Below are positions 1 to 26,714 of a DNA stretch of 64,000 nt, piece by piece. Under the pieces are notes generated by a model. That model saw only the letters and a program-made list of their open reading frames with translations. It had not been told where the DNA came from and made no database searches. A program made the position numbers and the translations under genes. Position 1 is the first letter of the stretch. Each line of letters starts with the position of its first letter. The stretch is from Isoetes taiwanensis (lineage: Eukaryota > Streptophyta > Lycopodiopsida > Isoetales > Isoetaceae). Where the stretch lies: positions 8,050,635 to 8,114,634 of the forward strand of contig JAJEKV010000033.1 of NCBI GenBank assembly GCA_021234155.1. The letters run 5' to 3'.

Positions 1-1200
1 GTTTTGGGCTGAAGGAGAATCACCGCATGCATCATGTACTTATGCATATCATCAAGCCGTCTCTGGCAAAGACTCAAACTGAACTTTGTGGGCCTCCTCA
101 AGTTCTCGCAATCCTCTTTTCACATAACCTTCTCCGAATGGCTTTCCAATGGCTCCCCCGACTTCAAAGATTTCTTCCTTCCGGTTTCTATCTCTCATCA
201 AAGGTCTACCTCCCCGCAGACATGCCTTTGATGTCTCTTATTCTCGCTTAGCGTCGCCGAGAACACTATTGATGTCTTCTTGTATCCGTGGTGGTTAGGT
301 CCTCTTCATGTGCATCCTTTCTTCCTCGAAATCTTATTTATATTGTCAATGCATTCGCCTCGCTGGATTTTCAGTTCTTCAACCTTGATGTGCTGCTAAT
401 TAACTCTCCATGACACCTCCGCAACAGAAGTTTCCGCAAATTCAAGCTCTTCCTTAGGGTAAAAATCCTTGCTGAAATTTAGAACCTTGGATGTGGATTT
501 AGAGGTCGCACTTCTTCCTCAGTAATAGCAGATTCTTTTGTTCTCCCTTTGCCAAATCTTTGGCCAAACTTTAAAAGTATCCCAATCTACTTTTTACCTG
601 GCCAATTGAAGGGCAAATGCACGAGCAAAAGTACTCTGTACATGGCGATTTGTGACCTCCCCGCTACCAAAACAATTTCATAATGTTTGTAGAAGTTCGC
701 CCACTGCTTCACGCTTAGATTCTTTTGAACCCCCGTGATGTCTTTTTGGCCCCAACGTCATTCCATTATCCGTTGTAACTGAAAAATTTCATCCGTGATT
801 TACACATCTTACATGCTTTGTTTCCACAACAAATGTTCTTCACAAATAAGTCTTCTTTTGGCCCCGGTTCCTCGTAAGTTTGAACCTTCCTCTTGTTTTT
901 TCTGGCTTTGCTAGAATCGGCTATTTTCAAATTTTTGTTTAACTGGTGACTTTGGAGGCAAAGGCCCCATTGCTTGATTTTTGGCAAGGATTTCGAGGAA
1001 GAAGAATAGTTACAATGAATTACTTCGCTGATCACCGTAAACACGTAAAATTGGAACGGGCGGCAAATTTTTTTCCTAAACAGAAACACTTCGCAATTCC
1101 CTCCCAAAAATTGCAATGAAGGTCCGCTCCGCCGCCATCGCCACTCATAATTTTGAATTGCCGACGGGCTACTCCTAATCATTACATATCCCAACTAACT
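1..1200 (-). pseudogene. Lysine-rich 5' part of the ULP1-type transposon gene, left copy
   Basis: Minus-strand frames give short pieces of a basic, lysine-rich protein. The longest (766-1,194) contains NKNLKIADSSKARKNKRK and a cysteine cluster CCGNKACKMC. The same text recurs at 18,560-19,770 with different frame breaks, so comparing the copies shows one original reading frame hit independently in each. By position it is the upstream part of the minus-strand gene that carries the ULP1 protease and FCP1-like pieces in the middle segment. The cysteine cluster could bind zinc, but no family is recognised. The frame is broken many times, probably in part by sequencing error. Confidence 0.45.
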
Positions 1201-3060
1201 AAAAATTCAAAAAAAAATAAAAAAACGGTGTTTACATGCCCTACATTATACATAATGTAAGGGCATTTTTTAGACACCCTAGCTTTTTTTTACCCTTGAT
1301 TGGGTAGAGGCCACCGCGACCACACACATGGGAGAATTGGTTGTTATTTGGCCTCAAGAGACAAGGAAACCACTTCCCTTCGCAATGTCCGAGGAAGATA
1401 GGAGAGTGGTTAAGACTGCTTCGCGCCACTCTAGAGTGCACTAGAGCTCAAGGCTTTTCTCTAACGAGTCGGAAAGCGGCCGCCAACTCGCGGGTTAAAT
1501 AAGCCGAGGTCTCCACCTTCCGCCGAGCCACTCTTCGCATTATTCGGCGAGCATGGTTCAAGGGAGAGTGGCTCGATCGGTGGAGGCACTCGCGACCGCA
1601 CAAAGAGCCATTGGCAGTAGAGTCACATTCTCTACTCAGCCGAGAAGGCCGCAGCAGGGTTCTAAAGAATGTGAAGACATTGCAGTCGGTATTCAATCGC
1701 TGAAGTCGAGAATCTCATTCAGCCAATACCCGTAGTGTACACTCCTCTTCTCGCCCCCGAAGCTGGAAGTTCTCGACCATGAACAGAAGAAGGCCTGCAT
1801 TTCCCCGGATCGCTAGTCAAGTATTCCCAACTCGCTGACTTCCTCTTCATGTCTCCCGCAGTGGATTTGCCGTGAGTTAGAAATGGAGATTCTCGGAAGC
1901 AATTCCTATTCTAGTTCTTTGCCGAGAAAGACATTCCTAGTTATGTTCTGTTAATGCTCGCAATATCTTAGTTCCTAACACCAGCCTCGATGATTTCTAT
2001 CTTGGTTGTTTGCTACTACTTTAACTACTATTCTCACTTGTGCCTCGTATAATGTATTCAATTCAACCACAAGCAAGAAAAAGATAACAAAAACAAAAAA
2101 CAAGAGATCAATGAGAAAACAGAGAATAAAGGAGAAGAGTACAGAGAACAAAGGGAGAAATGTGATGAGAAATGAGATTAAAAAGGGTATGATATTTACA
2201 AAACATACCCGGAAGATTTGTTTGATGAGGAGGAGGCTTCCAGTTCGCCTATGTGGGTATAGTCGCTGGCAAAGCGTGAATAAGGATTTCTGCCAGTCAA
2301 ATTGTATCAACGTGGATCAATAAGAGCCTCTAACAAATGTAATATAAGTAAAATGCACTAAAGGACTTACGTAAAACTAAAAAGCAGCACTTGTAAAGGG
2401 CCTCACTTTCTTCTCAAAGCAGAACGCCTACGAACAATGAATCATGAGAACTTTGGCTACCGGAAGGCCCCGATCCGGCCGACCAAGTCGTTGCCATAAG
2501 ATGGCCTTGAATCGCTTTGCCTGATCGACCTCGACGGTAAAGTGGGCTTAAGGAAACAGGGAGGATGAGTGATCGTGAGAAAAACAGGGAGGAAGAATGG
2601 TTTGGGGAGAGGAAGAGGGGTGCAAGCACTCGGCCGCACCGAACCTCGAAAAGTGCAATAATAAAACCATTGTCACGCAGGGCCATGCCTCCATGACGTG
2701 GCAAAGGCGGATTGCCGACATGGCCACTTCTTGCCCTCAAGAGGCGCCACGTGACATGACAAGATATGAAAGGGTAGGTTATATGTTTATATATGTTATC
2801 TTATGTATTTAATAAGGTTTCAATGGTTGAATAGTTTCAATGGTTATATATGCTTTACAATGTTTATATATGGTTTAGAACGAGTGTGGTTGTATGCTTT
2901 AATATGGTTATATGATTTTAGTTAATATGGTTGTATGATTTTAGTTAATATGGTTGTATGATTTAATATGATTATATTTAATATGTTTGTATGGTTTTAT
3001 ATGGTTCATATGGCCATATTTGTGGTGTTTGGGGCTATATGGTTTTAATGTGAGCTTTTT
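1201..3060. other. Spacer between divergent transposon genes, left copy
   Basis: No coding sequence is recognised. The stretch holds a near-perfect inverted repeat at 1,238-1,264 and, at about 2,780-3,050, an AT-rich tract of repeated tatggtt-like words. It lies between a minus-strand gene on the left and a plus-strand gene on the right, so it may contain both promoters. Short open frames here look incidental. Confidence 0.5.
1238..1264. repeat. 27-nt inverted repeat, left copy
   Basis: The arms gccctacattat and ataatgtaagggc face each other across two bases, with one extra A in the right arm. The same 27 bases occur unchanged at 19,811-19,837, although the surroundings differ. Confidence 0.6.
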
Positions 3061-5990
3061 CATTCAGGGAACATGTGAGATGAGGCAAATGGAGCCAGTG
3101 GAAGTCCAAAGGAGGCCATTGCCCTAGGCTCCAATGGAGGAAGATGGGTTGCTCTTTTTGTTGCACCCTTGCAACTGCATTTTATTTGCAGAGGGTATAA
3201 TAACCGCAGCTGATCCATTTGATAGTGTGAATGATGAGAGGCCGAGATGAACATCTTGGAGTTGGTATTGTGAAGCTTCATCGGGTTGATACAATCATGT
3301 CCTGTGGAAGCTCTAGTGATTGCATTGTGCTCAGGTCTGCTGAGTCCCAAGCTCAGCTTGAGATGGCCAATTAGATATATTACACACAAGAACCAAGTGA
3401 TACTCTAGATTGCCCCTATCAACTACACACCCCAAGGCCCACCCAAGGCCATGTGGAAGATTTGGTGGTCGATGAGCATCCTTTTGATCACAAGGAAGAG
3501 ACGCTATGTCTTTCATAAAAGGCAGCCAAAGGTGCCCAAGAGGCCTAGAAGTGACAAATATTTAGAAAGGATGGAAAGTATGGCACCAACCAAAGAAAAA
3601 CCCGAGGCAATTAGGGGACAAGAGTGTTGCAACCTAGATTGCATGCTGGCAAGATAAATGTGGATGACCTCGTGCAGATAAGGTCCCAATACATTGACAG
3701 CCTTCAAAAGATAGGATTAATTTTATTTACTCCTTGTGTAGAATTCCAGCCTATGATGAAAACACAGTGACTCTGCTACTATATCAATTGAGGGGCATGA
3801 AGGTATGTATGAGAGCATTGAGATGGATTCTGGGGTGAGCAAGTCTTCATTTTACGTGACATCGAGCAAGTTAGAAAAGGCACACTTTGTTCCAACATGG
3901 TAATGCACTCACTTTGAAAACTAGAGCAAATACTTGTAAAGGCCATTGCAGCCTTTCGAGAGCTTTGAGAGATACATGTCTCAATCTATGCCTCACAAGT
4001 CGAAGGTGAACGAGCACCTGGCAGCGAAAGTGGTGCAAAAGAGTGTTGCCACAACACTATATCCGTATGAGAGTGCCTTAAGGAGGTCAACCCATCCTAG
4101 AAACCACCGGAGGTAGGCCTCTTTCTCAATCACATTTCAAGAAGTTTTATGGAGCACCACTTCTGACGCGGAGTGTCCTACAACACATGCCATTCTCAAA
4201 GTGCAACACTTGCATTCAACTCAAGGATACACTTGCATCAACCGCAATAGAGAAAGAAAGAATGGCAATTAGGGAGCAATTTGCGATCACCAAAGGGACC
4301 AAATATCATGTAGACAAATTGTATTGGCAAAGGGAGAACATTTTCCGAGATGCAAATGACAAATTTTTTGTATATAATTCATGATAAGATGGACCAACAC
4401 AAGACTTTCTTGCCAAAGCTAGATCCTTTTACCCAAGCTTGTCAAAACGCTTTTCGATGAAAGTAAGTCTCAAGGGTGTATTAACACATGGTCATGGAAC
4501 TGGAACATATGGTCATTTTGTGCTTGATCTATGGAGAGATGATCCAAACTTCCATGTGAGCTCTATTTTCAAGTGCCCGAGAACACTAGAGAAAGGATCC
4601 ATAGAAGGGAGGAGGTATTCCCTTCAAAGACCCATTTTTGAGGCTTTGATGGATGATCAACCGCTTTGTTACCAAAGGCGATATAAAAAAGCTCACATCC
4701 AAGGTGTCTAGTGAATCAAGGAGGACTTGGGATGATTTCCCTTTACTTGAGAAATCAATGTACCGAGGAGCTATGTGTTCAGCTTGACAACCGCTGGAAA
4801 GAAAACAAGAATAGATGGATGTTTGGGGCAATGTCATACTTGACAAAGAAGGGGAGTATTCAAAGTTGTGAAAGTGGGATTCATGATGGTTGGGCATACG
4901 CATGATGACATAGATGGATTCTTTGAACTTTCTCCACCAAGCTCAAGAGGAGAAAACGCGACCACTCTCCCCGAACTAATGGATGTGTTTGAGAGTCGCA
5001 TTGACCCCAACCCAATGGCTTTCTTTGATGGATGAGGTTGCGTATTGGAAATCATTTGTAGAAGGATACTTGCTAGATGGTAAGGGACCATTGACAGATG
5101 TGACACAAAGCCACTTCTACTTCAAGTTTTGGGGTTAGGGATGGAATACCAATCATGCAATATAAGTGGAGACCAGACAAGTTGTGGATGCCTCGGATAA
5201 GGTATCGAAGTTGTGGGCAAAGGGGCACTGGTGAAGTTCTCATTCCTAAAGGGCAACCAAAACCACTACCTCTTCAAGACAGTCAAAGACTCTAGCCAAC
5301 CGGTGAAGGGGCATCAAGGATTACATAACACACTGATGATGTTCGAAATGGAAAGCACACCTCCACTTTAAGAAAAATCAAATGGACTTTAATCAAGTAC
5401 CGGAGAAAGTTGTGACATGCTTGAAACCGAATAAACCATGTGGGAGGGAGCTAAGAGACTGCCCTCTGCTGTAGTCAAGATGGAGGGTTCTCAAGGTGCA
5501 AGCACGTTTAGAATGCTCACTTGGGTCCCAACAAGGGTTCCAAGTGGTTTGTGGGAAGTAAGGCCCTCAAAGCCGAAGTGGTTTGATCTTCCCCGAGGGG
5601 ATCCCTTTGAGGACATCAAGGAAGGATACTTTGTGCTAGTAAGGCCTGATGATGAGGACTGGCCCAATATGGTTAGGGGTGGCACCTCTCGATGTAAATC
5701 CACCACTATGCCCGATGGAGAGGAGTTGCGCCCCGATTCCAAATTCAATATTGGGAGCCCATTGGGAGACACAAGAAGGGCAACTTGAAGGAGCAATACA
5801 CCGACACCGGGAGAAGAAGTGGAGGGCAATTATGCCGACCCCCTCAAAGGAGGGAATTGGTGGAGTGTGTGGTATGGTCATATCCAAGTTCTCACGCTGT
5901 AAAAGCGACAACACACACAAGATCCCAAGAAGGGAGATGGACAAGGCCATGAGCAACCTCCATGCTATATCATTGTATGAGGGCACATAA
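3060..5990 (+). pseudogene. DUF7869-type transposase-like gene, left copy
   Basis: This is the same gene as at 21,660-24,592. Recognisable blocks in order are a basic segment KRRYVFHKRQPKVPKR (about 3,490), CNTCIQLKDTLAST (about 4,200), THGHGTGTYGHFVLDLW (about 4,490), the QLDN...ENKN block (about 4,775) and GHTHDDID (about 4,895, frame-shifted). The family has an RNase H-like fold in which such aspartates are the likely metal ligands (family knowledge plus inference). The frame changes every 100-250 bases. Because the breaks differ from those in the right copy, many are probably sequence errors. Confidence 0.6.
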
Positions 5991-6079
5991 TATTGAGAAG
6001 TTTGAAAACTATCTCAACTAGTGGTTTGTAAAATTTATGAGGAAAACAAGTAACCCAATTCTATGTGTGTCATGTGTAA

Positions 6080-6510
6080 TTCTATTCAAGCAATCAATTC
6101 AAAATTTCTTTTATGGTGTGTGAGTCCCATTTTCAACCCAGTCCCAAAATTCAAGATTTGTCCCACTTTAATTAAATACTTACTTATTTTCTTTTGATGC
6201 TGGCGGCAGTACCTTGGCTTTTTAGCCTTAAGGAGAAGGCGGTATTGTCCATCGAAGATTTTGCATAGAGCATGGTCCATCAAACCACCGTTACATGGGA
6301 AGGTTGTGGTCCCCGAGGTCCGTCGAGGGCAGCTTCTCCCAAAGCATTTTCTGCAGCTGTCCCAAGCACGTAAATCACCCGTACTCCGTAATACATGCCA
6401 AGTCATCTATGAGCATTTGGGCATGTTCATAATCCAATCGCAAATTAAGGCATATATGAGGAGTTGTTGCATAACAGAGCATACCGAGATTGAAAGCAAG
6501 TATTGATGTT
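6080..6510 (-). pseudogene. Unrecognised minus-strand coding fragment, left copy
   Basis: This matches 24,779-25,080 in the right copy. On the minus strand it gives a piece containing LRAWDSCRKCFGRSC and, in another frame, YRLLLKAKK. The protein text is conserved between the copies apart from frame breaks. I do not recognise the family. It lies between the transposase-like gene and the 3' end of the NPP gene and could belong to either side. Confidence 0.3.
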
Positions 6511-6739
6511 AAGAGATCTAGTGTGACGTTAGCTATGGTGCAAGACTATCCTCATTTTGCATGCTTTGCAAAATCCTAAGTTTTTCTTTAGGACAACAAT
6601 CTAGAGCTTCTCTTCATTTGCACATGCACTTTGGAATCATTGTTTTGATAAAAGAAGAAGATGAATGCTATTATTTCATGAAAACGCCATGGGCAGATGT
6701 TATAGATCTCATAGAAAACATCAAAAGATGCAGCTGGGT

Positions 6740-7750
6740 CTTGATCAATAGAGTACTTTAGAATGATGAGGCACAAGAAGAGATTGGGCAAATCCATGGG
6801 TGCCATTATTTGGGGCGCCTTTAATACCAAGGATAGAAACCATGATATTGTAAATCTCAACATTAAAAAATGAATCAATCTTGAGATTTTTTTTTGAATC
6901 GGGGCCAGAAGCAAAGAATATAGAGCGCATTGAAAGTAGCATTATCGTAGCCAATGGCTACCAGAGCAAGACTTGGAGGCAGAAGCTCGGCTCATCTGCA
7001 GATTATAGCCCTCTGCTACCAATCCGACAATGGGAGCGATCCGATCGCTGCCGGAATACAGCAAACCTCTTGGGCAGATCTTCCTTCAGATAAACCTTCA
7101 AATGGTCCCTGTTTTCCACCTTCCGCTGCCTAACGCCGCTGTTATATTGGCAATATATCCTTTGCATTATACTTGCCGGAGGCCGCAGCATGAGCACAGG
7201 ACTCAGCATATCAAACCAGCCTCCTGCAGAACAACCCATAGAGCAAAATCTTCGATATAAATCGTCTTTTCATCACAAATTCCCACCATTCCATGATCGC
7301 CTACAAGGATGAAATTCTGCTCGTCATATTCCGTTCTCAAGCCCATCAAAAGGCGCCCAATTATTTTATCAACATGTGCAACAGCGGCAGAGATCTGCAG
7401 ATCATCAGGGCCGACTTCGTGGCCCCTGTGAATCTGGATCGTCAAGATAAAGGGCAACGAAATCTGGGCGCTGACCTATCGGCAGATCGAGCAGGGACAA
7501 AACATAATCCACGCGATCTTCGAATGGAACAGAGGAGTTAAATTTGGGGGCAGAAATCAGGCGGGCACTTCCAGGAATTTTTTTTCTTCACTTCACAGCC
7601 GGGCCAGTATATAACGGCAGATTTGAGCCCATTTTTGGCAGCAGTCTGCCAGATGGGTTCCTCCAAGCCACCATTTTGGATCCACGTTTCTGACCCTGAA
7701 TTTTCCCCACTGGGATCTCTGAAATAATTGGCCAATGATTCCGTGCGAAG
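6740..7750 (-). pseudogene. NPP (nucleotide pyrophosphatase/phosphodiesterase) gene, C-terminal part, left copy
   Basis: This is the left-copy counterpart of 25,357-26,367. Frames on the minus strand include LVGDHGMVGICDEKTIYIED (7,203-7,457), RDPSGENSGSETW (7,538-7,735) and, near the C-terminus, KIDSFFNVEIYNIMVSILGI (6,745-6,954). The same extra base that breaks the frame after the GSH motif in the right copy is also here (ccaatgg near 6,950). The right-hand end is cut by the left-copy copia at the same target site. Differences from the other copy are sparser here than in the neighbouring copia. Confidence 0.8.
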
Positions 7751-10700
7751 TGTGTTGGATGTTCATCAAAGCCAGGAGAATTCTCCTGACACCTAGCCGT
7801 TGTATCAGCTCCACGAACTCCACTATTCCAGGCCTTTTATGGCTTCTGAACAATTATTTTAATGAGATTCCCTCCTGAGCATATATAATAGGGGGGCCAT
7901 TCAAATCAAGCATCAGTTCTATTGCTTGCATCTGTGCGTTCTTGTATTGCTCTGTCAGCTCTATTGCTTGCTGATTGTAATCTTCATTAGGTTATGGGCC
8001 CACTGTAATTCAATCACGCATGTCGCCATTGCATTCTCCATCTGCTTTCGTATTTGATCCTCTGATTTTTCACTGCATTTGTTCAATCTTGCTCTATGGA
8101 TTCCACTAACGTCACTCTCTCCTCCCGGGATTGGCGCCCGCTTCCTCGATTTTCTGGAAAGAACTTCCAAATGTGGAAGTGGCGATCCAGATGATTCTCG
8201 AGGATAAACAGCTTTGGGAAGTTGTTAATCCATCCATTGCTTCACCCGGGTTGTCAACCCAACCGCCAACTGCCTCTAACTCCTCAATCCACCGGCAAAT
8301 CGACCAGCTCTGCTCCTACCATCGAGGATTGACCTTGATGCTATGACCGCTGAATTTTCTTCGAAAAGGATCGCAAGGCTAGATTGATAACTTCTACTAG
8401 TCTTGACGATACCGCCCAAGGATGATTAAAGGTGCTACCAATTACCAAGAAATGTGGCATGTTCTTCTTCATCTTATGAGTCCAATTAACGCCAAGAATC
8501 GCCTTGTTCTTCGCAAGAAACTCGATGAATTACGCCTTCAAGAGGGGAGGCGACCTCATGAGTCATATCTGCATGATGAAAGATCTTCTTGATGACTTAT
8601 GTGCCAATCGGTGTAACAATTACGTACATCTAAAAAGGTCTCCGTGATGCTGCTCAATGTACCTCTACCAAAAATCATTTGAGGGTCTTATCATCAACTT
8701 GAGGGTCGCTCTTCCGAATATTCCTTTTGATAATACGTTCTCTTGACAGAAGTTAAGAATGAATCTCTCTCATGCGAAGACAAAAGACAAACTCCGATGC
8801 CGACACTTTCATGTTTGCCAATTTGAAGATCAGATTCGGCAAGATCTTCTAAGGATTCTCGAGATCCTAAAGAGGCCGCCAAGAAAAAATCGTATCGCAA
8901 CAAATTCACTTGCTATCGCTGTTAAGAATGGGCATCTTGCCCGATTGTCGTGCTCCAGCCCCAATCCCAAAGACCTTCGCACTCTTTTCGCTTCCTTCCC
9001 CGCCCCAATTGAGCAGAATAATTTGGTCCAAGATTTCAGTAATCGTGTTAACCGACTCTTCTCATACGATCTTACTTGGTATCTAGATTCGTGGGCAACA
9101 AGTCACATGACACCCAATCAATCCTCCTTGTGTCTTATAAATTCGCTCAAGATTCACAGACGGCCTATGGGGATCACCATCTTCAACATGCCGTGGGTTC
9201 TCGTACCTGTCGCGGCTCTTTCAACTGGGCTCGTTAAACTTGTGAAGGACGCCCTCCATGTCCCCGGGGTCCATAAGAATTTACTGTAAGTAAATTGTTT
9301 ATGTCGGGTCTCCACATTGCTTTCAAATGCCCAATCTTTGCCTAATTCATCGATGCCGAGAATCATATTCTTCTGATTGGTGTAATGCGGCAATCTTTAT
9401 CAAATTGAGGATGGGTTTCCTCGATTGAACAAGCAAACTTGGCCAAGTACTCCTCCTACCAAAAATTCCCTTTGGCACTTCGCCTTGGCCACCCAGCACC
9501 CACCCGACCAAAGATCTTGTTTCCACACACAAATTGCCCCGCTATATCCCCTACTCATCTGCCCCCAATTGTCTCCAAGGAAAAGCCACCCGAAAGCATC
9601 TTTTCCACTTTCCTCGATTCTCGTGCCACAAAGGCCCTCCCTTGAACCGCCTCCATACCCACCTCGATTGACCCATCCGCCTCCTACTCTAAGTGGTGCT
9701 TCCGGGATATTCTTGTCATCGCGATGATTTCTCCAGAAAATTTTGTTCATTTGCTCCATTACAAACATGAAGTCTATGGTGTTTTTCCACTTTCAGCCAA
9801 ATAGAGCCGGTTACAAAGCCAAAATATCATCACTATTCGCAGTTGATGGGGGAGGGAGAGTTCGCCCAACAAATTTGATACTTTTTCAGAAACCAAAGGC
9901 ATTCAAAGATCAAATTACAACGCCCTATACACCGTGAGCAAAATGAAGAGCCGAGAGAGCAAATCGCGACCCCTAGTTGAAATGGCACGCATTACCCTCG
10001 ATAGCTACGGATGTACCCCGCAGAATTTTGGGGTGAAGCTATTCTACATCCGCTACACCATGAATCTGACACCTCATCGCAGCCTTTCAAAATCGCTTCC
10101 GAAGAAGTATGAGATAGCCTGCTTTATCAAACACATGCGAGTCTTTGGTTGCAAAGCCGCTTGTTCATGTCTCAAGCCGCATCGCCACAGATCCAAGATG
10201 GCACCAAAACCATTACATGCATGTTTATCGCTATAGCTCCAATAGGAAGGCCTATCGAATTTTGATCCCATAATCGCATCAGTTATCACCGCATGTCTCC
10301 CTAATGAATTTGAAACATGTCTTACCTCCCACTTCAAGCTACTTACCACCTTTGTTCTGGATTGCATACCGCTGCTCCTCTTGTCACCCCTCCTTCACAC
10401 TTCGCCTTCCGATACTCATTTATCTCCTCCTCCCTCCATCGATCACCGCTTCATCCATCTCCCCGCCTCCCCACCAATGCATATCTCCCACCTCGGGCCG
10501 CGACCCATTCTTTGTTAGACCCGCCGTAATAGAGGATCTCCCATTTGAGCCATGATTACACTTTTCCACCACGCCTTCTATCATTGAGCCTCGGCCCCAT
10601 CAAGATGCTCTTTGCATCCTGAAAACCCCATTGGCTTGAGGCTATAAAAGGAATGACTCATTCTTCAAGCGAAAACATGGACACGCAGTTCTCGCCTACA

Positions 10701-12404
10701 AATCATTCCCGTATTGATTCTCACTGGTTTTCAAAACGAAATATAACAAAGACAGTGAGATTGATGGTGTACAAGGCCGATTCATGGTGGAAGAGGGATT
10801 CACACAAATTCCGTGAGTTGATTTTCGATGAGACCTTTGTCTGAGCAAAAGATGGTTTTATCTCGCGACAAAGGCTTGCTGGTGCCACACCCAATCATTT
10901 TTTGTGAACAAATGGATGTTTTGGGCTTTCTCGCATGGTGATCTTCATGAGGACGCTTTTTCGAGCAGCCCGGCTGGATCTCGCTGGAAGGACTGTTCCC
11001 CTCAAAATACGTGATGTAAGCTTCATAGCCTTGTATGCTTTACCAAGCGCCTTCGTAGAAGGGTATGAAAAACTTCACCAGACCTTTTGACTCGTAATTT
11101 TCGCCACCCACAAATTCTTTGGCTGATCCCGCAATATGGTACCATAGTCCATCTCTCATCATATTATGTTATGTGTAGATGATATATTCTTCCTCATTGT
11201 CGCCAATGAGCAAGACTTGATCACCCCCTCAAACCACTCTCAAACCTGGCCGCATGGAAGGACTTAGGGCATGAAATTAATTACTTTTAGGCCCTCGAAT
11301 TAAGATACACCAAGATCTTGGATCCATGCATCCTCGAAGGCAAACCAAATATCTTACCGAGTTTCTACCCGCCATTCCATGTTATCCTCGCAATCCCTGC
11401 TGTTACCCCTTGAATTTGCATTACCTTATTACTATCCGATCCTGATTGTTTCACCCAATCTTCTCGTTTCATTCCCATTACGTAAAATATTATTGGCACT
11501 CTTCTTTTGCAGTAACCTCTATCAGCCTTGATCTAGCCTTTTGCTGTTTGTAATTGAGTCAATTCTGCTTGAATCCCAAAACAAAACCCACTGTATCGTC
11601 CTCCTCAAAAGATGTCTTCGATACCTTGCTGCCACCTTGAACCACGGCATCCACTACCATGCACAAGGAAATTCTGAAATTTTGGCTATGCGGATGCAGA
11701 TGGGCTGGTAATCATCATGATAGGAAGTCCACCTCTGGTTACTTTTTCTTCTTGTAGGGGGCTGTCAGTTGGAGCAGCTCCAAACAAAAGTGCGTGGCCC
11801 AATCTACCACTGAAGCTGAATATGTGGCACTAGCATTATGCTGGAAATGAAGCTCTTTGCCCCAAACAGATTGGCCACTGAACTTCATATCACGCTCAAA
11901 CAGGGATCACTTCTTTTACAGACAACCAAGGAGCAATTGCTATGTCTCACAATCCTGTCGCAATTAGCGCATGAAACATATTGATATAAAATACCCTTCA
12001 TGTGGTGCGGGATCTAGTCGAGCAAGACAGACTTTTGCTCTCTTTACTGTCCTTACAGAGGACATGGCTGCAGATACTCTGACCAAAGCTCTGGCACGTC
12101 CCAAATTTTACAGATGCTCTCTCTCTTTGGTTTCAAACCTCTCCCTGAGATTCTTATGTCTTTGAGGGGGGGTGTTGATGTTCATCAAAGCCAGGAGAAT
12201 CTCCTGACACCCAGCCGTTGTATCAGCTCCACGAACTCCACTATTCCAGGCCTTTATGGCTTGAACAATTGTATTTAATGAGATTCCTCCTGAGCATATA
12301 TAACAGGGGCATTCGTGAATCAAGATCAGTTCTATTGCTTGCATCTGTGCGTTCTGTATTGCTCTGTCAGCCTCTATTGCTTGCTGATTGTAATCTTCTT
12401 AATA
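7751..12404 (+). mobile_element. Ty1/copia element inside NPP, left (noisy) copy
   Basis: This copy has a 5' LTR at 7,751-7,989, a primer site ggttatgggcccac at 7,990-8,003 and a 3' LTR at 12,173-12,404. The target duplication cgaag is at 7,746-7,750 and 12,405-12,409. It is the same insertion as 26,368-31,048, at the same base of the same gene, so it was copied with the segment and is not independent. The internal region has dozens of small indels and substitutions, many at CTG or CAG. The protease motif, for example, reads YLDSWATSHM where the clean copy has YLDSGATSHM. The LTRs are no longer identical to each other. Confidence 0.9.
8098..12220 (+). pseudogene. copia gag-pol remnant, left copy
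   Basis: Broken pieces of the polyprotein can be read in the same order as in the clean copy. They include gag, protease (about 9,078), the integrase core around 9,930-10,240, reverse transcriptase around 10,640-11,250 and RNase H around 11,690-12,150. No frame stays open for more than about 180 codons. The breaks are absent from the clean copy, so this is either an old copy, which the shared insertion site argues against, or a poorly corrected sequence of the same element. Confidence 0.8.
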
Positions 12405-12458
12405 CGAAGCAGGGTATAATCCGGGTGGCTATGGAGTAGTGATTTGGAAATGTCATGG
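12405..12458 (-). pseudogene. NPP upstream flank truncated at the duplication junction
   Basis: These bases encode, on the minus strand, the NPP text before the insertion (HYSIATGLYPAS region). They match 31,049-31,101 and then stop abruptly at 12,458. The signal peptide and the first part of the catalytic domain, present in the right copy up to 31,318, are missing here. Confidence 0.8.
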
Positions 12459-12559
12459 GTTACGTATTGCTCTTTGAATTAAGTAAACTGGATTCGTTAT
12501 ATCTTACTTATACATACCATTTTTTCTTGCGAGTGGGTGTATGAGATGTTCAAGATGAA

Positions 12560-14340
12560 CATCACGAAGTGAATTAGCATCGAGAAAGTTCGAACTGCTT
12601 AAGCCGATGTGTGAGAAGGTTGAAAGGAACACATCTTTCTTTAGCGTGAAGCATAGGCAGTCTATAGGAAAGCTTTTAAGATCACGAGGAGCAAATTCAT
12701 GCCAAGCGTACATGTTCTTGTGGTGTTTGTCGCGGCCGGATGAGAACAATAGGCGTCATAGCTCAACTAAAACATTCAAAATGTTGGTTGCCTATGGAAA
12801 TTCTGATTAACGTGATAAGGAAGGCGAAGAGTGGCATAGTTTGGACTGTGTAGGAAGGGAGAGTGCCGTGAATCGGGCAATCGAAAATATTCAAATCTGT
12901 CCTAAGGAGAAAGAGTCGCGGCCGAGAACATTGAATGGCAAGTTTACAAGTACGCGGAACTAACCCTTCCAAAGCCGGGTAACTGGGCGAGGTTGAAGCT
13001 TGTTACCGAAAAGCGGACTCCGTGTACATTGCTTGGACAAGATGTTTCAGCACCTTACAAAGTTCACTATTCACAACTTTTCAAGTTGGCAGAGCAAACA
13101 ATTCAGGAAATCGATAAGGCAAAATTTTGAGGGATGATTCTCGTTTGTCGAGAATGGACTTTGCGCAGAACTACACTTTGCGTACCATTCGTGGAAGTTC
13201 AGTCCGAAAGCATTGGAACAATGACCGATAACTATTCCGGGTGCATATAACCATGATGAAAGTCAATGGCGAAATGAAAAACTGCTCATTTGTATGTTTC
13301 CGGTGTTATGAAGCATGATGCTTTCTTTGTTCAGTTGCACTCAAGAAGCGTAACCATATTTGGATGATGCAAAGGTTTTGGCCACATCAAATACCATGTC
13401 ATGTGGTCCGATGGGTGTGTCGCTTCGGTTTAAGTGTTCTCAGCCTTTATTTGAATGTGGCCCAATATTATAACAGGTATAAAATTAGGATGCATTGGAA
13501 TTATTTTGCTCGTGCCATGGAAAAGGAGAACATGATGGGCGTGTCGCTTTTGGAGAAAAGGTTCCTAGCGACGAAAGGAAAGGAAAGAGAATGGTGTTCG
13601 ATTTTGGGTGCCAACTCGCTTGCACTTTGGCCGAGACAAAAGAAGTGCAAAAATGGACGAGTCATATGGGAGGTGATGGCGTAAGACATTAACGCGGGAC
13701 CCTCGCTCGATTGTGAGACATTGCCCGGTACTCTAGCTATACATTGTGTAAGTCCGCTTATTAATCCAAATTTAATTCAACACTTGTCATGTATAGATCC
13801 CTGTCATGTTTTTTGCAATGGTTGCTTGAATTTCAGATGGGGAGAATGTGAGAATCTCGGCATTGTGGTGCATGGAAGCTGCACAAACCGGAGCCTAGTT
13901 CGCCCGGCCGATCAACAAGAAGAGCTAGTTGGTTTTATGCGCACCGATGAGCAAGAACTATCCATGTACCCAAATGGAGACATATTTGCATCTTTTGCTG
14001 CCCCGTGGAATCATGAAAATGTTCCATACTGCGTCCTCCTATGCGAAGGAGATGCATATTCTTCGAGAAGATGTGATTGACGACTATGGAAATAGAATGT
14101 TGGCTGGTGCGGGGGTTATAGCGGGTCATTACTATCAATTCCACAAGGCACAAAGCACAAGTACAAGTTTCGGATGACAAAATAGTATTGGTACCCATTG
14201 AATCAGAATTGGAGCAAAGTTCACGATGCAAGCCAGTCAAGCATAAGTTGAAGGGGCACGACAAAGATATATGATCACACGAGAGGTGCATGACATGCTT
14301 ATATCGCTTCCACCGAGATTGTTGAGTGCACATGACTAAG
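12560..14340 (+). pseudogene. Second transposase-like gene with HGKGEHDG motif
   Basis: Plus-strand frames give MHWNYFA followed by HGKGEHDG (around 13,495-13,560, adjacent frames). Farther on come FASFAAPWNHENVPYC (about 13,987) and REDVIDDYGNRMLAGAGVIA (about 14,060). HGKG..DG near a large aromatic motif occurs in eukaryotic transposase-like proteins with an RNase H fold, where it is usually followed by a basic K/R residue. I use this only as a family resemblance. At least six frame changes interrupt the reading, with a noise pattern like that of the duplicated copies. Whether it was once joined to the DUF7869-type gene cannot be decided from this window. Confidence 0.45.
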
Positions 14341-14379
14341 TTCCGTCATAAAGAACTTTCATATTTGCCATCATCTTCC

Positions 14380-14930
14380 GTTATGTTGAGAAAACTAGTC
14401 GATTGTCGTAAGTTTTTGTTATTTACTTATTCTTTAATCCGGAAGTGCATTTTGATACTTCAATTTCAAGATCACCGTAATATCTTCTCGTGACCAAGCA
14501 AAATGTATATCAGAAAGTACAAAATGTTTATCAATTGTTGCATGAAGAAGTTAAACTAGTCTGCGTAAGTTATGTTGAAAAACTAGTCGACACTGTAAGT
14601 TTTTGTTATTTACTTATTTTTTATCTGACCAAGTGCATTTTGATACTTTAATTTGGTATCACGTAATATCTTCTCGTGACCAAGCAAAATGTATATCGAA
14701 AAGTACAAAATGTTTATCAATTGTTGCATGAAGAAGTTAAACTAGTCGTGTTATGTTGAGAAAACTAGTCGATTGTCGCAAGTTTTTCTTATTTACTTAT
14801 TTTTAACAAGTGCATTTTGATACTTAAATTTCAAGATCACACAATATCTTCTCGCTTCCAAGCACAATGTATATCAGAAAGTACAAAATGTTTATCAATT
14901 GTTGCATGAAGAAGTTAAACTAGTCTGTGA
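14380..14930 (+). repeat. Tandem repeat, 3 units of ~181-189 bp
   Basis: Three consecutive units each begin near gttatgttgag (14,380, 14,569 and 14,750) and end near gaagttaaactagtc. Each contains tttgatactt, atcttctcg, aaaatgtatatc and tgtttatcaattgttgcatg. The units differ by small indels. Confidence 0.9.
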
Positions 14931-15189
14931 ACTTGTTCTGTTAGAATGGATATCAATAGCTTTTCTTTTGATTCATGAAACAAAGAAGAAAGTGGAACAT
15001 GTATGGAGACAAAAACTCTTGTATTACATATCACAAGATATACAACCCGGGTCATATCGTGATATGATGCCAATATATACAAGTCCGTTGTTCATGTTTT
15101 ATATTAACATTAATTTTACATTCAAAATCGGGTCACACCCGATGTGAAAATTACATACTATTCTCGCTGTTTCATATGTTACTTTTTTT

Positions 15190-15720
15190 AGCTTGTCCAT
15201 AGCTCGACATGCCATTCAGATCCTTGTAGCCCTCTCAAAGCATTTGCCTCCAAACACCAAGTTGTTAGTACATCGGATGGATTGTGAAAGGATTCTACGC
15301 TTCACATATCAAGGCAGTGTCCGGTGTGTCTACTATTAGTGTGTTCTTTGTTATTCCTGGTCTGATACTTCTGTGATATAAACTCAATTGGCTTTCAGAC
15401 AAAGGTTTATCTTCACTTGTCGCAATCAGGAAAGCAGCCCAAACAATGGCTTCCATCAAAAGGTGAACCTTAAGTCCCTTATTCCAAGGTCATTGTCAAG
15501 ATTTTATCCACTACTCTTGATAGGTTCCATGGAGCTATTGATGACCATATTCCTACTTCAAAGTGTTCAAATACAAATTCCGTGAATTCGCCTAGGTGGG
15601 GCCTTAAAAACAACACTTTCTTGCCTATTATGTCATAATTTCCAACTAGTTGATCATCCGATACCAAAGTCCTATGTATTTGTTTTGCCAAAACATTATT
15701 GATATCAAACACTATCAACC
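15190..15720 (-). pseudogene. FCP1-like (NIF/HAD-family) phosphatase fragment
   Basis: The minus-strand frame at 15,479-15,718 reads VFDINNVLA, then FLRPHLGEFTEFVFEHFEVG and IWSSIAPWNLSRVVDKIL. This fits the FCP1 homology domain: an N-terminal D-x-D-like motif (here DIN, so the second catalytic aspartate is replaced), then RPxLxEFxxxxxxxFEVxIWSS. After 15,479 the frame is broken, but FDGSHCLGCF and later text still fit the domain's usual continuation. The family dephosphorylates phospho-serine or phospho-threonine, as on the RNA polymerase II tail. With DIN in place of DxD this copy may be inactive, or the base may be an error. It lies downstream of the ULP1 piece on the same strand. Confidence 0.6.
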
Positions 15721-16116
15721 TTTTCTCGCATACACCTGATATGAAAGAACATGCAATTTATCAATAAAGTATGGTGGAGTTGAATAAAAGAGATTGTATT
15801 CAAATTCAATGAAAAATGTGTATTTTATAATCAAATAGTGTTTAGCATTGACAATAGGGAGAGGCTGTTTTAGCAACATTTATTAGTACCCGTGTGGTCT
15901 AATAGGTTCAAAAGCGATTTGAATGTGGTCTAACTCCTGAAGTAGTGCTCTGGGTGAGAACATCACGACGATCGATGCATACTTTGTCAAGAACCAGTTT
16001 CGGGTAATCAAGAATGTGACAACAATACTTACATAATAAGTATTAAAACCATTTGTTTGCAAGACAAAAGAAGTGAGACACTCACATTGGTAGTTTTACC
16101 ACACACTAATCGCGGT

Positions 16117-16560
16117 TCACAAACTTCGCATATAAGCCGCAACATAGAGGCCACATGAATCCCCATCTTTCTCGCTTTGTGGACACTTATGAATCTTCAC
16201 AACCGGTGAAGGATTTTGTCCATGCTTCAAAAAGTGGGACACTCGACACAACCGCTGCGCTATAGTGAGGATATGGAGCCCAAAAGACCGGGATCTATTT
16301 TGTAGCAAATGAATGAAAGAAGTCGCTAACATGGTATCCAATCTACTCAATATTAATAAAAGGAGATGTGAAATACAAAATACCTCTTAAGTGCAAGCAT
16401 GTCAACGCCAATGTCCCTGGCAGTAATTGAAGATCCGAATGTTGATGGTGTTCTTACTCTTAGTAAGTGCCATGTTGAAGATGGCCAAAGTGTGATGTTC
16501 AAGAACTCTACATAGCATTGGAATCATGATCCATCTCAAGACTTCAGCCAATTTATCCCC
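16117..16560 (-). pseudogene. ULP1-type (peptidase C48) cysteine protease domain
   Basis: The minus-strand frame 16,117-16,350 ends in CPQSEKDGDSCGLYVAAYM. This matches the C48 signature: a glutamine of the oxyanion hole, then D-x-C-G carrying the catalytic cysteine, followed by a hydrophobic helix. Upstream text (to about 16,560) fits the strand before it but the frame is broken. ULP1 proteases process SUMO and are often carried by plant MULE and CACTA transposons. Here one sits in a different, DUF7869-type element. The splice-like boundary near 16,350 is uncertain because the sequence is noisy. Confidence 0.7.
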
Positions 16561-18555
16561 TGTAAGAGCTACCTTTACAATATCTCTTCCACGGAGGCCG
16601 CCATAGATTTATCTTTTCGCTTGCCTTGGCCCATGCCGTAAATTCCATGAAGTCGTCCTATGGGGAAGAACCGCACGTGACGGCCTTTTTATCATCCGAA
16701 CACAGAGTCGCGGTACCTATAACAAGTTGAAAAGGATACAATTACTAACTTGACTTACACATACAAATGAACAAGTTCAAAGTCCAAGACTGGCATACAT
16801 ATCCACATGCCGGGTTGGAAAATTTCCCCACATCCATGTCCAAAGACATCTTGTTCAAATAAATAACACTCCATTTCAGCAAAGATCCCGGGAAAATCCT
16901 TGCCTTCTTGAGCTTCATCATTGGGTCAAAGAAGGCATCGTGATGGCCCTCGTATTCGAGAATCCCGATGCGGGTTCAATGACCACTACATTTACACAAA
17001 TCATCTACATTCGCCTACTACTATCCATATTATTTTAAAGTTTTTAACTTGGATACTAGATGTAGAAAAAAATGTAAGAAATGTAGATCAAGTTACTGTA
17101 GAGATCATTCTTCCGCTTTCCGGATCTTTTTTTCTGGAGTCAAGATCCATTTCCTTCCCTACTTTTTTGGTTTCCTCACCGATTCTTATTAGGTTAAAAT
17201 CCTCGTCTCCGCAACCTCTTCCCCGATTTCTCATTGTCGAATTTCAACCGTCCTTTGCTGTGTCGGAAAAGTTTTGACACAAACTTAAAAGTATAGGGCT
17301 TTACATCTTGATGTTCTAATATTCCTCTTCATTAGGACACAGTAAACATAGGATGTCATGGATTTCTCAATTCTTTGACACTAAAATAAAATGCTTTCTT
17401 ACCGTTTCTCCGCCAATTATCTTCTTCTCGTGGCTTTTAGGCGTGGAGTTCTTCTTTTGAGTCACATCTTTCGCTTTGCCTTTACTTTTTGAAGATGTGG
17501 CCTTAGCCTGCTCCCCCTCAATCTCTCGAGTTCCTCGCCATAACCGGAATGTCACCATGCACTGACAAGTGCCTCGACCTCCTCAACCTCAGATCACCGC
17601 AGAATAGTGATTTTGCTTTTTCCTTCAATCACCGCTTTCTTTTCTGGCTACATCTTGCACCTCAATTTTTCTTTGGAACCTCCAAAACCGTGGAAACCCG
17701 AACCAAGAATAAGAAATTGCTTCCTCGACACAATGCAAATCGAATTTGAAAACAAGCGCATTTGACCGTGGTGTAATTTCGCCAAGTAGTTTTTGGCACT
17801 TTGAAGCTCTGAAAATAAATCACATAACAGTCCGATATCGGGTCTCAAACTAATCGGTCTCTCTAATCGTTTCGTACATATCAATAGTCTGTACATATTA
17901 CTAGAACCGATCTACATTGAAGTACTTTGAGTACATACATATGTAAACAACTATTTATCCGGATGGAATGTACATGTAATGTACATGAATGTGCTCCAAT
18001 GTATGCACATGTACACATCACACGCATATAAAATACCTCTAAATGTTCTCGCCACAAAACTTCGATTACACAACTCCTAATTTTATGTATTTAAGTTCTA
18101 CATTTAGGACCCTACATCGTGAATGTACAACATGTATGTAAGAAACACATATATGTATGACATGCAAGCCAAGGAACTATAAGTATAAAATAACCAAGAC
18201 ACTCCTACATGTTTGTAGCAAAACCTTAAGCAAAGACAATCTACATGTAAATGGATTCTACATGTAAATGGATTCTACATTGCAAGTAATCCCGGTGCAA
18301 ACAAATTGAACATAAATCATGAAATATTGCTTACCTCCTCCAGTGTACACACCCAAGGTCTTTGAAATGTTATCGCCCCATTTGCATGCTCTTGGGCAGA
18401 TAGTCCAGCCAGAAATAGAATATGAGAAACAGAAGATATGAAATGAATGCTCGATGGAGCAACTAGGATAGGTTCATTATTAGCAAAGCCATTACCGCAA
18501 AACACACATCCATGCACGATATGAATTTTTCTTATTTTGGAGAGATCACTAAGCT
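16560..18555 (-). pseudogene. Basic linker region of the ULP1-type gene
   Basis: Minus-strand frames here are short and rich in K, S and T, for example KATSSKSKGKAKDVTQKKN (17,367-17,558). A consensus-like donor (gag|gtaagc) occurs near 18,333, so the gene probably has introns. I see no conserved domain. The interval about 17,900-18,300 is AT-rich with many tacatgta-like words and no coding signal, which suits an intron. Confidence 0.35.
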
Positions 18556-18559
18556 TGTT

Positions 18560-19770
18560 TTGGGCTGAAGGAGAATCATTGCAGAATGCATCATGTACTT
18601 ATGCATATCATCAAGCCGCCTGCAGCACTCAAACCGAACTTTGTGGGCCTCCTCAAGTTCGCAATCCTCTTTTCACATAACTCCTTCTCCGAATGGCTTT
18701 CTCCAATGGCTCCCTGAATTCTCTCAAGCATTTCTTCCTTCCGGTTTCTATCTCATCAAAGGTCTACCTCCTCTGTTTGCAGCCTCTTGATGTCTCTCTT
18801 ATTCTCGCTTAGGCCGCCGAGAACACTATTGATGTCTTCTTGTATCCGTTGCTAGGTCCTCTTCATGTGCATCCTTTCTTCCCGAAATCTTATTTATATT
18901 GTCACGCATCTCGTCTGGCTGGATTTTCGGTTCTTCAACCTTGATGTCTTTGCTAATTAACTCTCCATGACACCGCTTCAATGTGAAGTTTCGCAAATTC
19001 AAGCTCTTCCTTAGGGTAAAATCCTTGCTGAAATTTAGGAACCTTGGATGTGGATTTAGAGGTCGCAATTTCTTCGTAATAGCAGATTCTTTTGCTCCTC
19101 CCTTTGCCAAATCTTTGGCCAAAACTTTAAAAAGTATCCCAATCTACTTTTTACTCACAATTGAAGGGCAAATGCACGAGCAAAGTACTGTGTACATGGC
19201 GATTTGTGACCTCCCGCTTACCAAAAACAATTTCATAATGTTTGTAGAAGTTCTCGCCCACTGCTTCACGCTAGATTCTTTTGAACCCCGTCAGATGTCT
19301 TTGGGCCCCCCACCGCTTTCGTCCATTATCCGTTGTAACTGGAAAAATTTCATCCGTGATTTACACATCTTACATGCTTTGCTTCCACAAATGCTGGTTC
19401 TTCACAAATAAGTCTTTTTTTGGCCCCGGGTTCCTCAAGTTTGAACCTTCCTCTTGTTTTTTCGGCTTTCTTGCTAGAATCGGCTATTTTCAAATTTTTG
19501 TTTAATCTGGGTGACTTTGGAGGCAAAGGCGCCCATTGCTTGGATTTTGGCAAGGATTTCGAGGAAGAAGAATAGTTACGGTCGAATTACTTCGTTGATC
19601 ACTAAAAACACGAGAAAAATTGAACGGCGGGCAAATTTTTTTTTTTCCTAAACAGAAACACTTCGCAATCTCCCTCCTAAAAAATTGCAATGAAGGTCCG
19701 CTCGGTTGCCATCGCCACTCATAATTTTGAATTGCCGACGTGGCTACCCTAATCATTACATATCCCAACT
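18560..19770 (-). pseudogene. Lysine-rich 5' part of the ULP1-type transposon gene, right copy
   Basis: This is the counterpart of 1-1,200. Minus-strand pieces include RLNKNLKIADSSKKAEKTRG (19,350-19,553) and NINKISGRKDAHEEDLATD (18,826-19,122), the latter likely coiled. It runs in the same direction as the ULP1 and FCP1-like pieces to the left and would supply the N-terminal part of the same protein or transcript. At the cysteine cluster this copy reads differently from the left one, which shows that the two copies carry independent small errors. Confidence 0.45.
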
Positions 19771-19810
19771 AACTAAAAATTCAAAAAAATAACAAAACGG
19801 GTGCCTACAT

Positions 19811-19837
19811 GCCCTACATTATACATAATGTAAGGGC
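19811..19837. repeat. 27-nt inverted repeat, right copy
   Basis: This is identical to 1,238-1,264. It lies just upstream of the minus-strand lysine-rich gene. Confidence 0.6.
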
Positions 19838-21375
19838 ATTTTTTAGACACCCTAGCTTTCTTTTACCCTTGATTGGGTAGAGGCCACCGCGACCACATAA
19901 TAGGAGAATTGAGAATTGCTAAGAGTTGGCTCGCAGACAAAGGAAAACCACTTCCCTTCGCAATGTCCGAGGAAGATAGGAGAGTGGTTAAGACCGGCTC
20001 ATAGCCAGCTCTAGAGTGCACTAGAGTCTCGGCGGCCGACTCCACGAAGTCGAGAAAGCCGCCGCCATTCGTGGTTAGTGCCGGAGGCCTCCACCCGGGC
20101 GGAGCCCTTCTTCGCATATTCGGCGAGTATGGTTCAAGGAGTGTGGCGTGACCGGGTGGAGGCACCGCGACCGCACAAAGAGCTATTGGTAGAATACATT
20201 CTCGACCACCAGCCGGAAGGCCGCGCAGGTTCTAAAGAATGTGAAGACATTGGGTAGCCGCGGCAATCCCGGATCGCGAAGCCGAGAATCCCTCAACCGC
20301 CAACACCCGTAGTGTACACCTCTTCGCTGAAGTCGGAAGTTCTCGACTCATGAAGTCCTAGAAGAAGGCCTCAGATTTCCCGGACTGTTGGCAAGTTGAA
20401 GTATTCCCAACTGCCACTGCATGTCTCCCGCAAAGGGATTTGCTGTGAGTTAGAAATGGAGATTCGCGGAAGCAATTCCTATTCTTAGTTCTTGCCGGGA
20501 GAAAGACATTCCTAGTTATGTTCTCGTTAATGCTCGCAATATCTTAGTTCCTAACACGGTCTCACGATGATTTCTATCTCTGGGTTGCTTGCTACTACTC
20601 TAACCACTATTCTCACTTGTGCCCGTATAATGTATTCAATTCAACCACAAGCAAGAAAAAGATAACAAAAAACGTAAAACGAGATCAATGAGAAAACAGA
20701 GAGAACAAAGGGAGAAGAGTACAGAGAACGCTGGAGAACAAGCATTGAGAAATGAGATTAAAAAAGGGTATGATATTTACAAAACATACCCGGAAGATTT
20801 GTCGGATGAGGAGGAGGCTTCCGAAGTTCGCTTCCATGTGGGTATAGTCGTTGGCAAAGCGTGAATAAGGATTTCTGGCCGTAAATTGTATCGGGGGATC
20901 AATAAGAGCCTCTAACAACGTAATATAAGTAAAAATGCACTAAAGGACTTACGAAAAACTAAAAAAGCAAAGACTAAAAGGGCCTCACTTTCTTCTCGAA
21001 AGCAGAATCGCCGAACAATGAATCGCAAGGAGAACTGGCTGGCTGGAAGCGCCCCGATCCGTCGACCAATTGCCGCCGGGTCATAAGATGGCCTTGGAAT
21101 CGCCGGTTCGATCGATCACCCGACGGTAAAGTGGGCCCTAAGGAAACAGGGAGGATGAGTGATCGAGAAAACAGGGAGGAAGAATGGTCGGGGAGAGGAA
21201 GAGGGTGCAATTAATTCGGGCCGCACCCTCAACCTCGTAAAAGTGCAATAATAAAACCATTGTCAATGCAGGGGCCATGCCCTCCATGACGCGATGGCAG
21301 GCGGATTGTCGACATGGCTTTCCGTTTGCCTCCTCAAGAGGCTTTCACGTGGACATGACAAGATATGAAAGGGTA

Positions 21376-21655
21376 GGTTATATGTTTATATATGTTATCT
21401 TATGTATTTAATAAGGTTTCAATGGTTGAATAGTTTCAATGGTTATATATGTTTACAATGTTTACATATGGTTTAGAACGAGTGTGGTTGTATGCTTTAA
21501 TATGGTTATATGATTTTAGTTAATATGGTTGTATGATTTTAGTTAATATGGTTGTATGATTTAATATGATTATATTTAATATGTTTGTATGGTTTTATAT
21601 GGTTCATATGGCCATATTTGTGGTGTTTGGGGCTATATGGTTTTAATGTGAGCTT
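21376..21655 (+). repeat. AT-rich degenerate minisatellite (tatggtt words)
   Basis: Words such as atatggttgtatgatttta recur back to back, for example near 21,500, 21,530 and 21,555. The same tract at 2,780-3,050 in the left copy is almost unchanged, in contrast to the noisy CG-bearing flanks. Confidence 0.75.
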
Positions 21656-21659
21656 TTTC

Positions 21660-24592: not shown

Positions 24593-24778
24593 TAATATTG
24601 AGAAGTTTGAAAACTATCTCAACTAGTGGTTTGTAAAATTTATGAGGAAAACAAGTAACCCAATTCTATGTGTGTCATGTGTAATTCTATTCAAGCAATC
24701 AATTCAGAAATTTCTTTTATGGTGTGTGAGTCCCATTTTCAGTCCGAGTCCCAAAATTCAAGATTTGTCCCACTTTAA

Positions 24779-25080
24779 TTAAATACGACTTATTTTCTTT
24801 TGATGCGCTGCGGTGTACCTGGCTTTCTTAGCCTTAAGGAGAAGGCGGTATTGTCTGACCGCGTACGGGCATAGAGCATGGTCCATCAAACCACTGGTTA
24901 CATGGGAAGGTTGTGGTCCCCGAGGTCCGTCGAGGGCAGCTTCTCCCAAAGCATTTTCTGCAGCTGTCCCAAGCACGTAAATCACCTGGGTACTCCAGAA
25001 TACATGCCAAGTCATCTATGAGCATTTGGGCATGTTCATAATCCAATCGCAGCTAAGGCATATGAGGAGTTGTTGCATAA
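24779..25080 (-). pseudogene. Unrecognised minus-strand coding fragment, right copy
   Basis: The minus strand reads DYEHAQMLIDDLACILEYPG then DLRAWDSC, and in the next frame LMDHALC and YRLLLKAKKARY. The counterpart in the left copy keeps the same wording. The codon-like conservation suggests a genuine coding piece. No family is recognised. It lies 280 bases beyond the NPP stop codon. Confidence 0.35.
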
Positions 25081-25356
25081 CAGGAGCATACTGAGATTGA
25101 AAGCAAGTATTGATGTTAAGAGATCTAGTGTGACGTTAGGCTATACATGCAAGACTATCCTCATTTTGTGCATGCTTTGCAAATCCTAAGTTTTTTCTTT
25201 AGGACAACAATCTAGAGCTTCTCTTCATTTGCACATGCACTTTGGAATCATTGTTTTGATAAAAGAAGAAGATGAATGCTATTATTTCATGAAAACGCCA
25301 TGGGCAGATGTTATAGATCTCATAGAAAACATCAAAAAGATGCAGCTGGGTCTTGA

Positions 25357-26620: not shown

Positions 26621-26714
26621 TGTAATTCAATCACGCATAAGTCGCCATTGCATTCTCCATCTGCTTTCGTATTTGATCCTCTGATTTTTCACTGCATTTG
26701 TTCAATCTTGCTCT

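Follow-up and report, generated by a model that had tools for sequence, protein, structure and literature searches.

The CTG and CAG triplets that differ between copies of a Ty1/copia retrotransposon in Isoetes taiwanensis are very probably long-read base-calling errors at CHG-methylated sites that have been fixed in the assembly, a reading in which the platform and the methylation are what we infer from the letters. The differences are enriched on CTG/CAG, center on the middle base of the triplet, carry a strand bias specific to each copy, depend on location, and recur in a second Copia family. The original prediction, which attributed them to a failure of base calling at methylated motifs, is supported, with methylation as its presumptive step.

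The window, which here means the whole 64,000-nucleotide stretch analysed (C1038:8050635-8114634 of GCA_021234155.1, an assembly of 1.66 Gb in 1110 contigs), contains a left copy (L, 1-12458) and a right copy (R, 18557-31101), the latter including the R element at 26367-31048 (Table 1). BLAST aligns L with R at 89.0% identity, with 679 mismatches, 487 gap openings, and 737 gap letters; MAFFT gives 1325 mismatches and 533 gap letters, so the split between mismatches and gaps depends on the aligner. The similarity also runs past the start of the window, where the 6 kb ahead of position 1 align with 12497-18556 at 88.9% (BLAST), and the copies therefore form a tandem, arranged head to tail, whose unit measures about 18.6 kb. 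The element belongs to Ty1/copia, having Retrotran_gag_2, rve, and RVT_2 in that order, together with LTRs and a target-site duplication; CGAAG flanks it on both sides in L and R alike, which places the insertion before the duplication. The R element is not flawless, as its reverse transcriptase domain (RVT_2) is divided between two ORFs. All seven other copies agree against it at 1 of 4682 sites, and at least five of the seven do so at nine sites.

Table 1. Features of the window (window positions unless a contig is given).
Feature	Position	Strand	Basis
Copy 1 of tandem	C1038:8044629 to window 12458	+	BLAST
Left copy (L), last two thirds of copy 1; tandem begins some 6 kb before position 1	1..12458	+	BLAST
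Copy 2 of the 18.6-kb head-to-tail tandem; 12497-25000 corrupted, CTG/CAG-poor	12497..31101	+	
Ty1/copia retrotransposon, R copy, reference for counts	26367..31048	+	Pfam gag, integrase, RVT_2
LTRs of the R element, mutually identical	26367-26606 and 30809-31048		
Same insertion in L; its two LTRs 92% identical	7752..12398	+	BLAST
Interval of the original prediction; L element interior, CTG/CAG corrupted	8098..9270 (= R 26717-27889)	+	
L element interior, 108/137 CTG/CAG altered	8131..11417 (approximate; = R 26750-30050)	+	MAFFT alignment
ENPP-type phosphodiesterase exon (PF01663, E 2e-70), cut by the element; control stretch	25556..26377	-	
Same ENPP exon in L	6942..7751 (approximate)	-	alignment
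Part of second Copia element, second-family reference	48200..49800	-	

The three differences between the copies that the original prediction had quoted are all present in the alignment of R 27470-27660 with L 8862-9051. Within the interval 8098-9270, 60 of 148 differing positions fall in R's CTG/CAG, which occupy 14.8% of positions, while 180 shifts of the difference pattern give a mean of 20.6 and a maximum of 31; for substitutions, the figures are 25 of 50 against a shift mean of 7.3 and a maximum of 14. Over the whole 12.5 kb, 246 of 1218 differences lie in these triplets (shift mean 95.2, maximum 122). Mismatches are therefore not spread evenly over contexts, as the alternative to the predicted enrichment would have it. 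The wording that the differences "sit on" CTG/CAG holds as enrichment but not as a general description, for 80% of them over the 12.5 kb (972/1218; 20% inside) lie outside R's CTG/CAG. This figure overstates the off-motif share, since R itself has lost CTG/CAG outside the element; within the element, 389 of 545 differences lie outside (29% inside).

The choice of motif was likewise right in part, for CTG/CAG are affected, but so are CCG/CGG and other triplets that contain CG. Among the 32 strand-collapsed triplet classes of the element, CAG/CTG ranks 2nd with R as the reference (117/202 altered in L) and 19th with L as the reference, which means that CTG/CAG were lost and CCG/CGG gained in L; 56 of the 70 CCG/CGG of the L element are unmatched in R. 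Other triplets altered in the L element include CTT (50/139) and CTC (41/129), compared with AAG (8/73) and GAG (7/51), and some of this remaining noise may stem from CHH or CG methylation. Homopolymer slippage was rejected as the main cause, homopolymers of at least 3 not being enriched among the L differences (0.14 vs 0.16 expected). The Fisher tests reported below take sites as independent.

The pattern extends to other insertions of the same element. An LTR search returned 29 matches, of which 16 were used, namely, two LTRs each in R, L, C1036, C446, C655, C963, C709, and C1089; the 13 left out comprise single 100% hits in C1027 and C379 and 11 rows at 76-89% identity. The CTG/CAG enrichment test was passed by all seven copies compared with the R element. 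Besides L, the altered CTG (of 119) and CAG (of 83) number 59 and 37 in C446, 53 and 37 in C655, 67 and 49 in C963, 58 and 44 in C1089, 29 and 11 in C1036, and 66 and 47 in C709. In C446, C655, C963, and C1089, CTG and CAG are altered at 45-59% of sites, while TTG, CAA, ATG, CAT, GAG, and AAG are altered at 0-9%, CTC/CTT at 6-12%, CAC/GTG at 5-21%, and CCG/CGG at 5-40%. When these four and C1036 are summed, CTG/CAG are altered at 444/1010 sites and control triplets at 294/5400. Furthermore, 90-93% of the differences in these five insertions lie within 3 nt of CHG (CTG, CAG, CCG, CGG) or CG, which cover 50% of positions; the share is 72% in L and 68% in C709. The triplet counts leave aside L026, which is the copy inside the window, as well as L041 (ORF list only) and L001-L004 and L018-L025 (composition and BLAST only). 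The 202 CTG/CAG sites are unequal in susceptibility across five copies (L007-L011): 25 are unaltered in all five (12.1 expected), and 34 are altered in four or five (21.4 expected).

A second Copia family repeats the result, with p < 0.05, uncorrected, in 11 of 13 copies. For this family, at least 44 rows were listed, and 40 of 2487 candidates were scored. In the seven best matches besides the window's own copy, a choice that favors clean copies, CTG/CAG are altered at 52/343 sites and controls at 100/3248, with p < 0.05 in five of the seven and no significance in two; with the other copy as the reference, there is no excess (12/303 vs 169/3317). In six near-full-length rows chosen at about 94-95% identity, a choice that favors noisy copies, the counts are 180/292 and 172/2782 (each p < 1e-14), with a smaller excess when the other copy is the reference (24/136 vs 340/2950). 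Differences are thus concentrated on the motif in both Copia families and in the interval 8098-9270, as is characteristic of methylation-induced base-calling error.

Within CTG/CAG it is most often the middle base that changes, by transition or by deletion. In L, 148 changes inside these triplets include 28 middle-base transitions, 37 middle-base deletions, and 24 insertions; in all seven copies, 824 changes include 171 middle-base transitions and 193 middle-base deletions. The errors are rich in transitions and depend on the strand. The ratio of CTG>CCG to CAG>CGG is 22:3 in L, 4:16 in C655, 7:23 in C963, and 4:13 in C709, where the bias is clear, and is weakly biased in C446 (15:9), C1036 (8:6), and C1089 (16:9); L and C963 differ with p 1.9e-6. 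Because the bias is specific to the copy, read strand explains it more readily than would a mutation process tied to the element.

The alterations also depend on where in the locus a triplet lies. In the ENPP exon of L, 2 of 45 CTG/CAG are altered, compared with 117 of 202 in the element (Fisher p 4.8e-12), and 18 small events remain there, consisting of 14 indels (12 single-base) and four substitutions; since these persist beside near-intact CTG/CAG, the exon has not simply been polished. The ends of the L element are similarly near-intact (2/17 and 7/48 altered) compared with the interior (108/137; p 5e-19), and a second count puts ends and interior at 8/64 and 109/138; the share of altered control triplets is 7% and 12% at the two ends and 19% in the interior. 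The same domain as in L appears in C709, another contig of this locus that is very noisy, with 11/64 altered at the ends and 102/138 in the interior, whereas C1089 differs from both (45/64 and 57/138). Site by site, L and C709 agree with an odds ratio of 4.5 (p 8e-7), compared with 0.5 to 2.7 for L and the five others, and this agreement owes part to the shared domain. The errors therefore follow location and not the triplet alone, and a caller that performs badly at CTG/CAG everywhere is disfavored by the near-intact exon and element ends in the same noisy copies.

In the proposed mechanism, the platform would most likely be nanopore with a caller lacking training on plant non-CG methylation, and the mark would be 5-methylcytosine at CHG sites. 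A methylated C would alter the signal around the next base, so that mCTG could be read as CCG, C-G, or CTTTG and mCAG as CGG, C-G, or CAAAG, and the read strand behind each copy would decide which form prevails. Such errors would remain in the assembly where polishing failed, and where the DNA is free of CHG methylation, as may be the case in the gene exon and the adjoining element ends, the same triplets would be read correctly. A point against this account is that the R element, which as the same locus would be expected to share the methylation of L, is nonetheless clean.

An unlikely explanation is plain low-coverage long-read noise missed by polishing, in which CTG/CAG are always misread, methylated or not. 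The background is indeed high, with control triplets altered at 176/1080 sites in L and 288/1080 in C709, and the clean blocks in other copies resemble a polishing mosaic; the L exon, however, has 43 of 45 CTG/CAG right beside its 18 small events. The C709 ends similarly keep 53 of 64, while controls there fail at 9-32% by bin (over the copy, 9-34%: 18% and 9% at the 5' end and 30-32% in the last 840 nt), and those last 840 nt have 9 of 43 CTG/CAG altered under the highest of these end backgrounds. The different pattern of C1089 on the same sequence also speaks against noise that is indifferent to methylation.

Real mutation, whether from an old duplication or from a mutator aimed at CHG (deamination of methylated C or a RIP-like process), is very improbable. 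Plant transposable elements decay at CHG and CG contexts, which are the contexts affected here, and some changes have the form that this would produce, such as CTG>TTG (seven in C655 and nine in C963), CAG>CAA, seen in the second family, and CAG>TAG. However, C>T and G>A changes do not dominate at the sites: first- or third-base transitions, the deamination class, make up 10 of the 148 changes in L and 73 of the 824 in the seven copies, compared with 171 plus 193 middle-base events, and the original view that deamination is not the explanation is borne out. The strand bias, moreover, flips among copies of one element. Age as the cause of the L/R differences is ruled out by the LTRs of the R element, which are identical although the copies differ by 11% and the insertion predates the duplication, so that age alone cannot account for the differences.

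The assembly also encodes candidate genes of the methylation machinery. A MET1-type gene carries two DNMT1-RFD stretches, BAH, and DNA_methylase. A gene in C61 has the order BAH, chromo, DNA_methylase, with the BAH and chromo matches below their cut-offs, an order typical of plant chromomethylases; it is a candidate chromomethylase-like gene on the basis of these below-cut-off matches. A second candidate, in C1061, has a DNA_methylase match only. The chromo-domain search was uninformative as evidence, with the best 150 of 8792 candidates scored.

The corruption is not confined to the left copy, as had been supposed, for both copies are affected over 12497-25000. In the stretch 12497-18556, copy 1 shows 63 CTG/CAG and copy 2 shows 69, with 14 common to both; if losses are independent, capture-recapture estimates about 310, or 51 per kb, near the values for the exon (58) and the element (55). 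The estimates are 53 per kb for 18557-21500 and 33 per kb for 21500-25000, and these 33-53 per kb compare with 10-16 seen in each copy. For 12497-18556, the ratio of estimated to observed is 4.5 to 4.9x for CTG/CAG and 1.1 to 1.4x for the control triplets TTG/CAA, ATG/CAT, CTT/AAG, GAG/CTC, and GTG/CAC. In an alignment of both copies with C709 (19570 columns), the sequence that departs from the other two is copy 1 in 1275 columns, copy 2 in 636, and C709 in 2208, while no two agree in 420. Of the 25 kilobase bins of 1-25000, 21 have a CTG/CAG observed/expected ratio no higher than 0.7, and 26 of the 39 bins that follow reach 1.0 or more. The contrast between the nearly error-free R element and the corrupted remainder of copy 2 (12497-25000) could, at a guess, stem from polishing with reads that came from numerous copies of the family, or from a difference in haplotype state.

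Several further features of the window were recorded. In 1-25000, many bins poor in CTG/CAG have a CG observed/expected ratio of 0.7-1.0, compared with 0.3-0.5 in many later bins, and spurious CG created by errors could raise it; against this, bins 3001-6000 and 22001-25000 are for the most part low in CTG/CAG yet have a CG ratio of 0.2-0.5. A GC-rich block at 34000-37000 (58% over 34001-36000) has overlapping ORFs in several frames, which we take to resemble broken non-LTR reverse transcriptase. Pyrimidine-rich tracts at 37000-37426 and 41176-41357 are alike (93% over 68 bases), a 274-base repeat occurs at 40906 and 42561 (96%), and a unit of about 180 bases stands three times in tandem at 14380-14925 and recurs in the part of copy 1 that precedes the window.

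The tandem itself is a question separate from the cause of the errors, and the noisy copy is probably a false duplication from under-collapsed noisy sequence, of the homotype class, with an error-rich second copy on the same scaffold. C709 carries the left flank, a single unit, and the right flank, with the same flanks as the window tandem, and points about 55 bases inside either window copy map to its positions 38971 and 38976. That the plant truly has the 18.6-kb duplication, with only its letters corrupted, is somewhat less likely than not. The copies stand head to tail without gap letters in the window, and C709 could be an allele lacking the duplication; on the other hand, the unit is present once in C709 between the same flanks, the exon shows four substitutions between L and R, with C709 agreeing with R at 4/4, and C709 itself contains another noisy abutting pair.

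That pair, of 4.7 kb, lies head to tail on the C709 reverse complement (17756-22452 and 22454-27146; L012-L017) at 92.3% identity, and CCG/CGG ranks 1st and CAG/CTG 3rd of the 32 classes among its altered triplets. The left part of C709 has no BLAST match over 300 bases within C1038:8012635-8030634, and a repeat with at least 44 rows listed adjoins the breakpoint where C709 parts from C1038; C709 may be the other haplotype or a chimaera. A control comparing plastid with nuclear-plastid sequence was also tried and set aside, as the six rbcL matches, two full-length (89.5% identical, no gaps) and four short fragments, gave no usable truth pair. The two full-length rbcL copies are open (L020, C1052:5415903-5416829, and L021, C840:20428-21354), one of them in a multi-megabase contig, and their gap-free alignment of 1453 bases shows a difference of 10.5%; this may reflect transferred plastid DNA or a second plant in the sample.

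It seems somewhat more plausible than otherwise that the finished FASTA can be read as a low-resolution CHG methylome, in which the element interior would be methylated and the 5' LTR with about 240 nt and the last about 840 nt by the exon would not, a pattern shared by the two copies of the locus that were assembled separately but not by other insertions, and that the same errors would inflate the ages of transposable elements, break ORFs, and help create false tandems throughout such assemblies. If so, the dating of transposable elements, the calling of pseudogenes, and estimates of CG content and of tandem duplication would be biased in the methylated part of plant assemblies of this type made from native DNA, and the loss of CTG/CAG from the text would flag this bias without reads. 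It would also offer a cheap, testable readout of CHG methylation domains where the raw signal of an assembly has been lost, the letters partly recording where the DNA was marked if the errors reflect methylation.

In the literature, as far as titles, the starts of abstracts, and passages show, no report was found of CHG-site miscalls frozen in a plant assembly. Native plant DNA modification absent from training data is given as a likely or partial cause of lower nanopore accuracy in the available passages of PMC9749173 and PMC7501810, which, unlike the present data, describe neither the context or spectrum of errors at CHG nor their distribution over loci; neither CHG nor CTG occurs as a word in the text of PMC9749173. 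Methylation-induced nanopore errors in bacteria are described in the passages seen of PMC11610573 as strand-dependent ambiguities between A and G and between T and C. The likeness lies in motif-bound, strand-dependent A/G and T/C errors that are able to enter assemblies, whereas here the motif is CHG in plant transposons, deletions and short insertions are also common, and the errors follow domains rather than every motif. The direction is also opposite, as G is correct and the other base false in the example excerpted from that paper, while A>G and T>C are seen here. The nanopore miscalls of telomere repeats (PMC9414165) are similarly systematic base-calling errors in a fixed motif, but they appear from the part of the paper available to be a repeat artefact with no apparent tie to methylation, which is proposed in the present case. 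Homotype false duplication, as outlined in the portion consulted of PMC9516828, shares with the tandem an under-collapsed second copy arising from accumulated long-read errors, whereas part of the error here appears to be epigenetic in cause. The kind of error is thus known, and its motif, its domain pattern, and its survival into a large assembly make the present case a variant of it.
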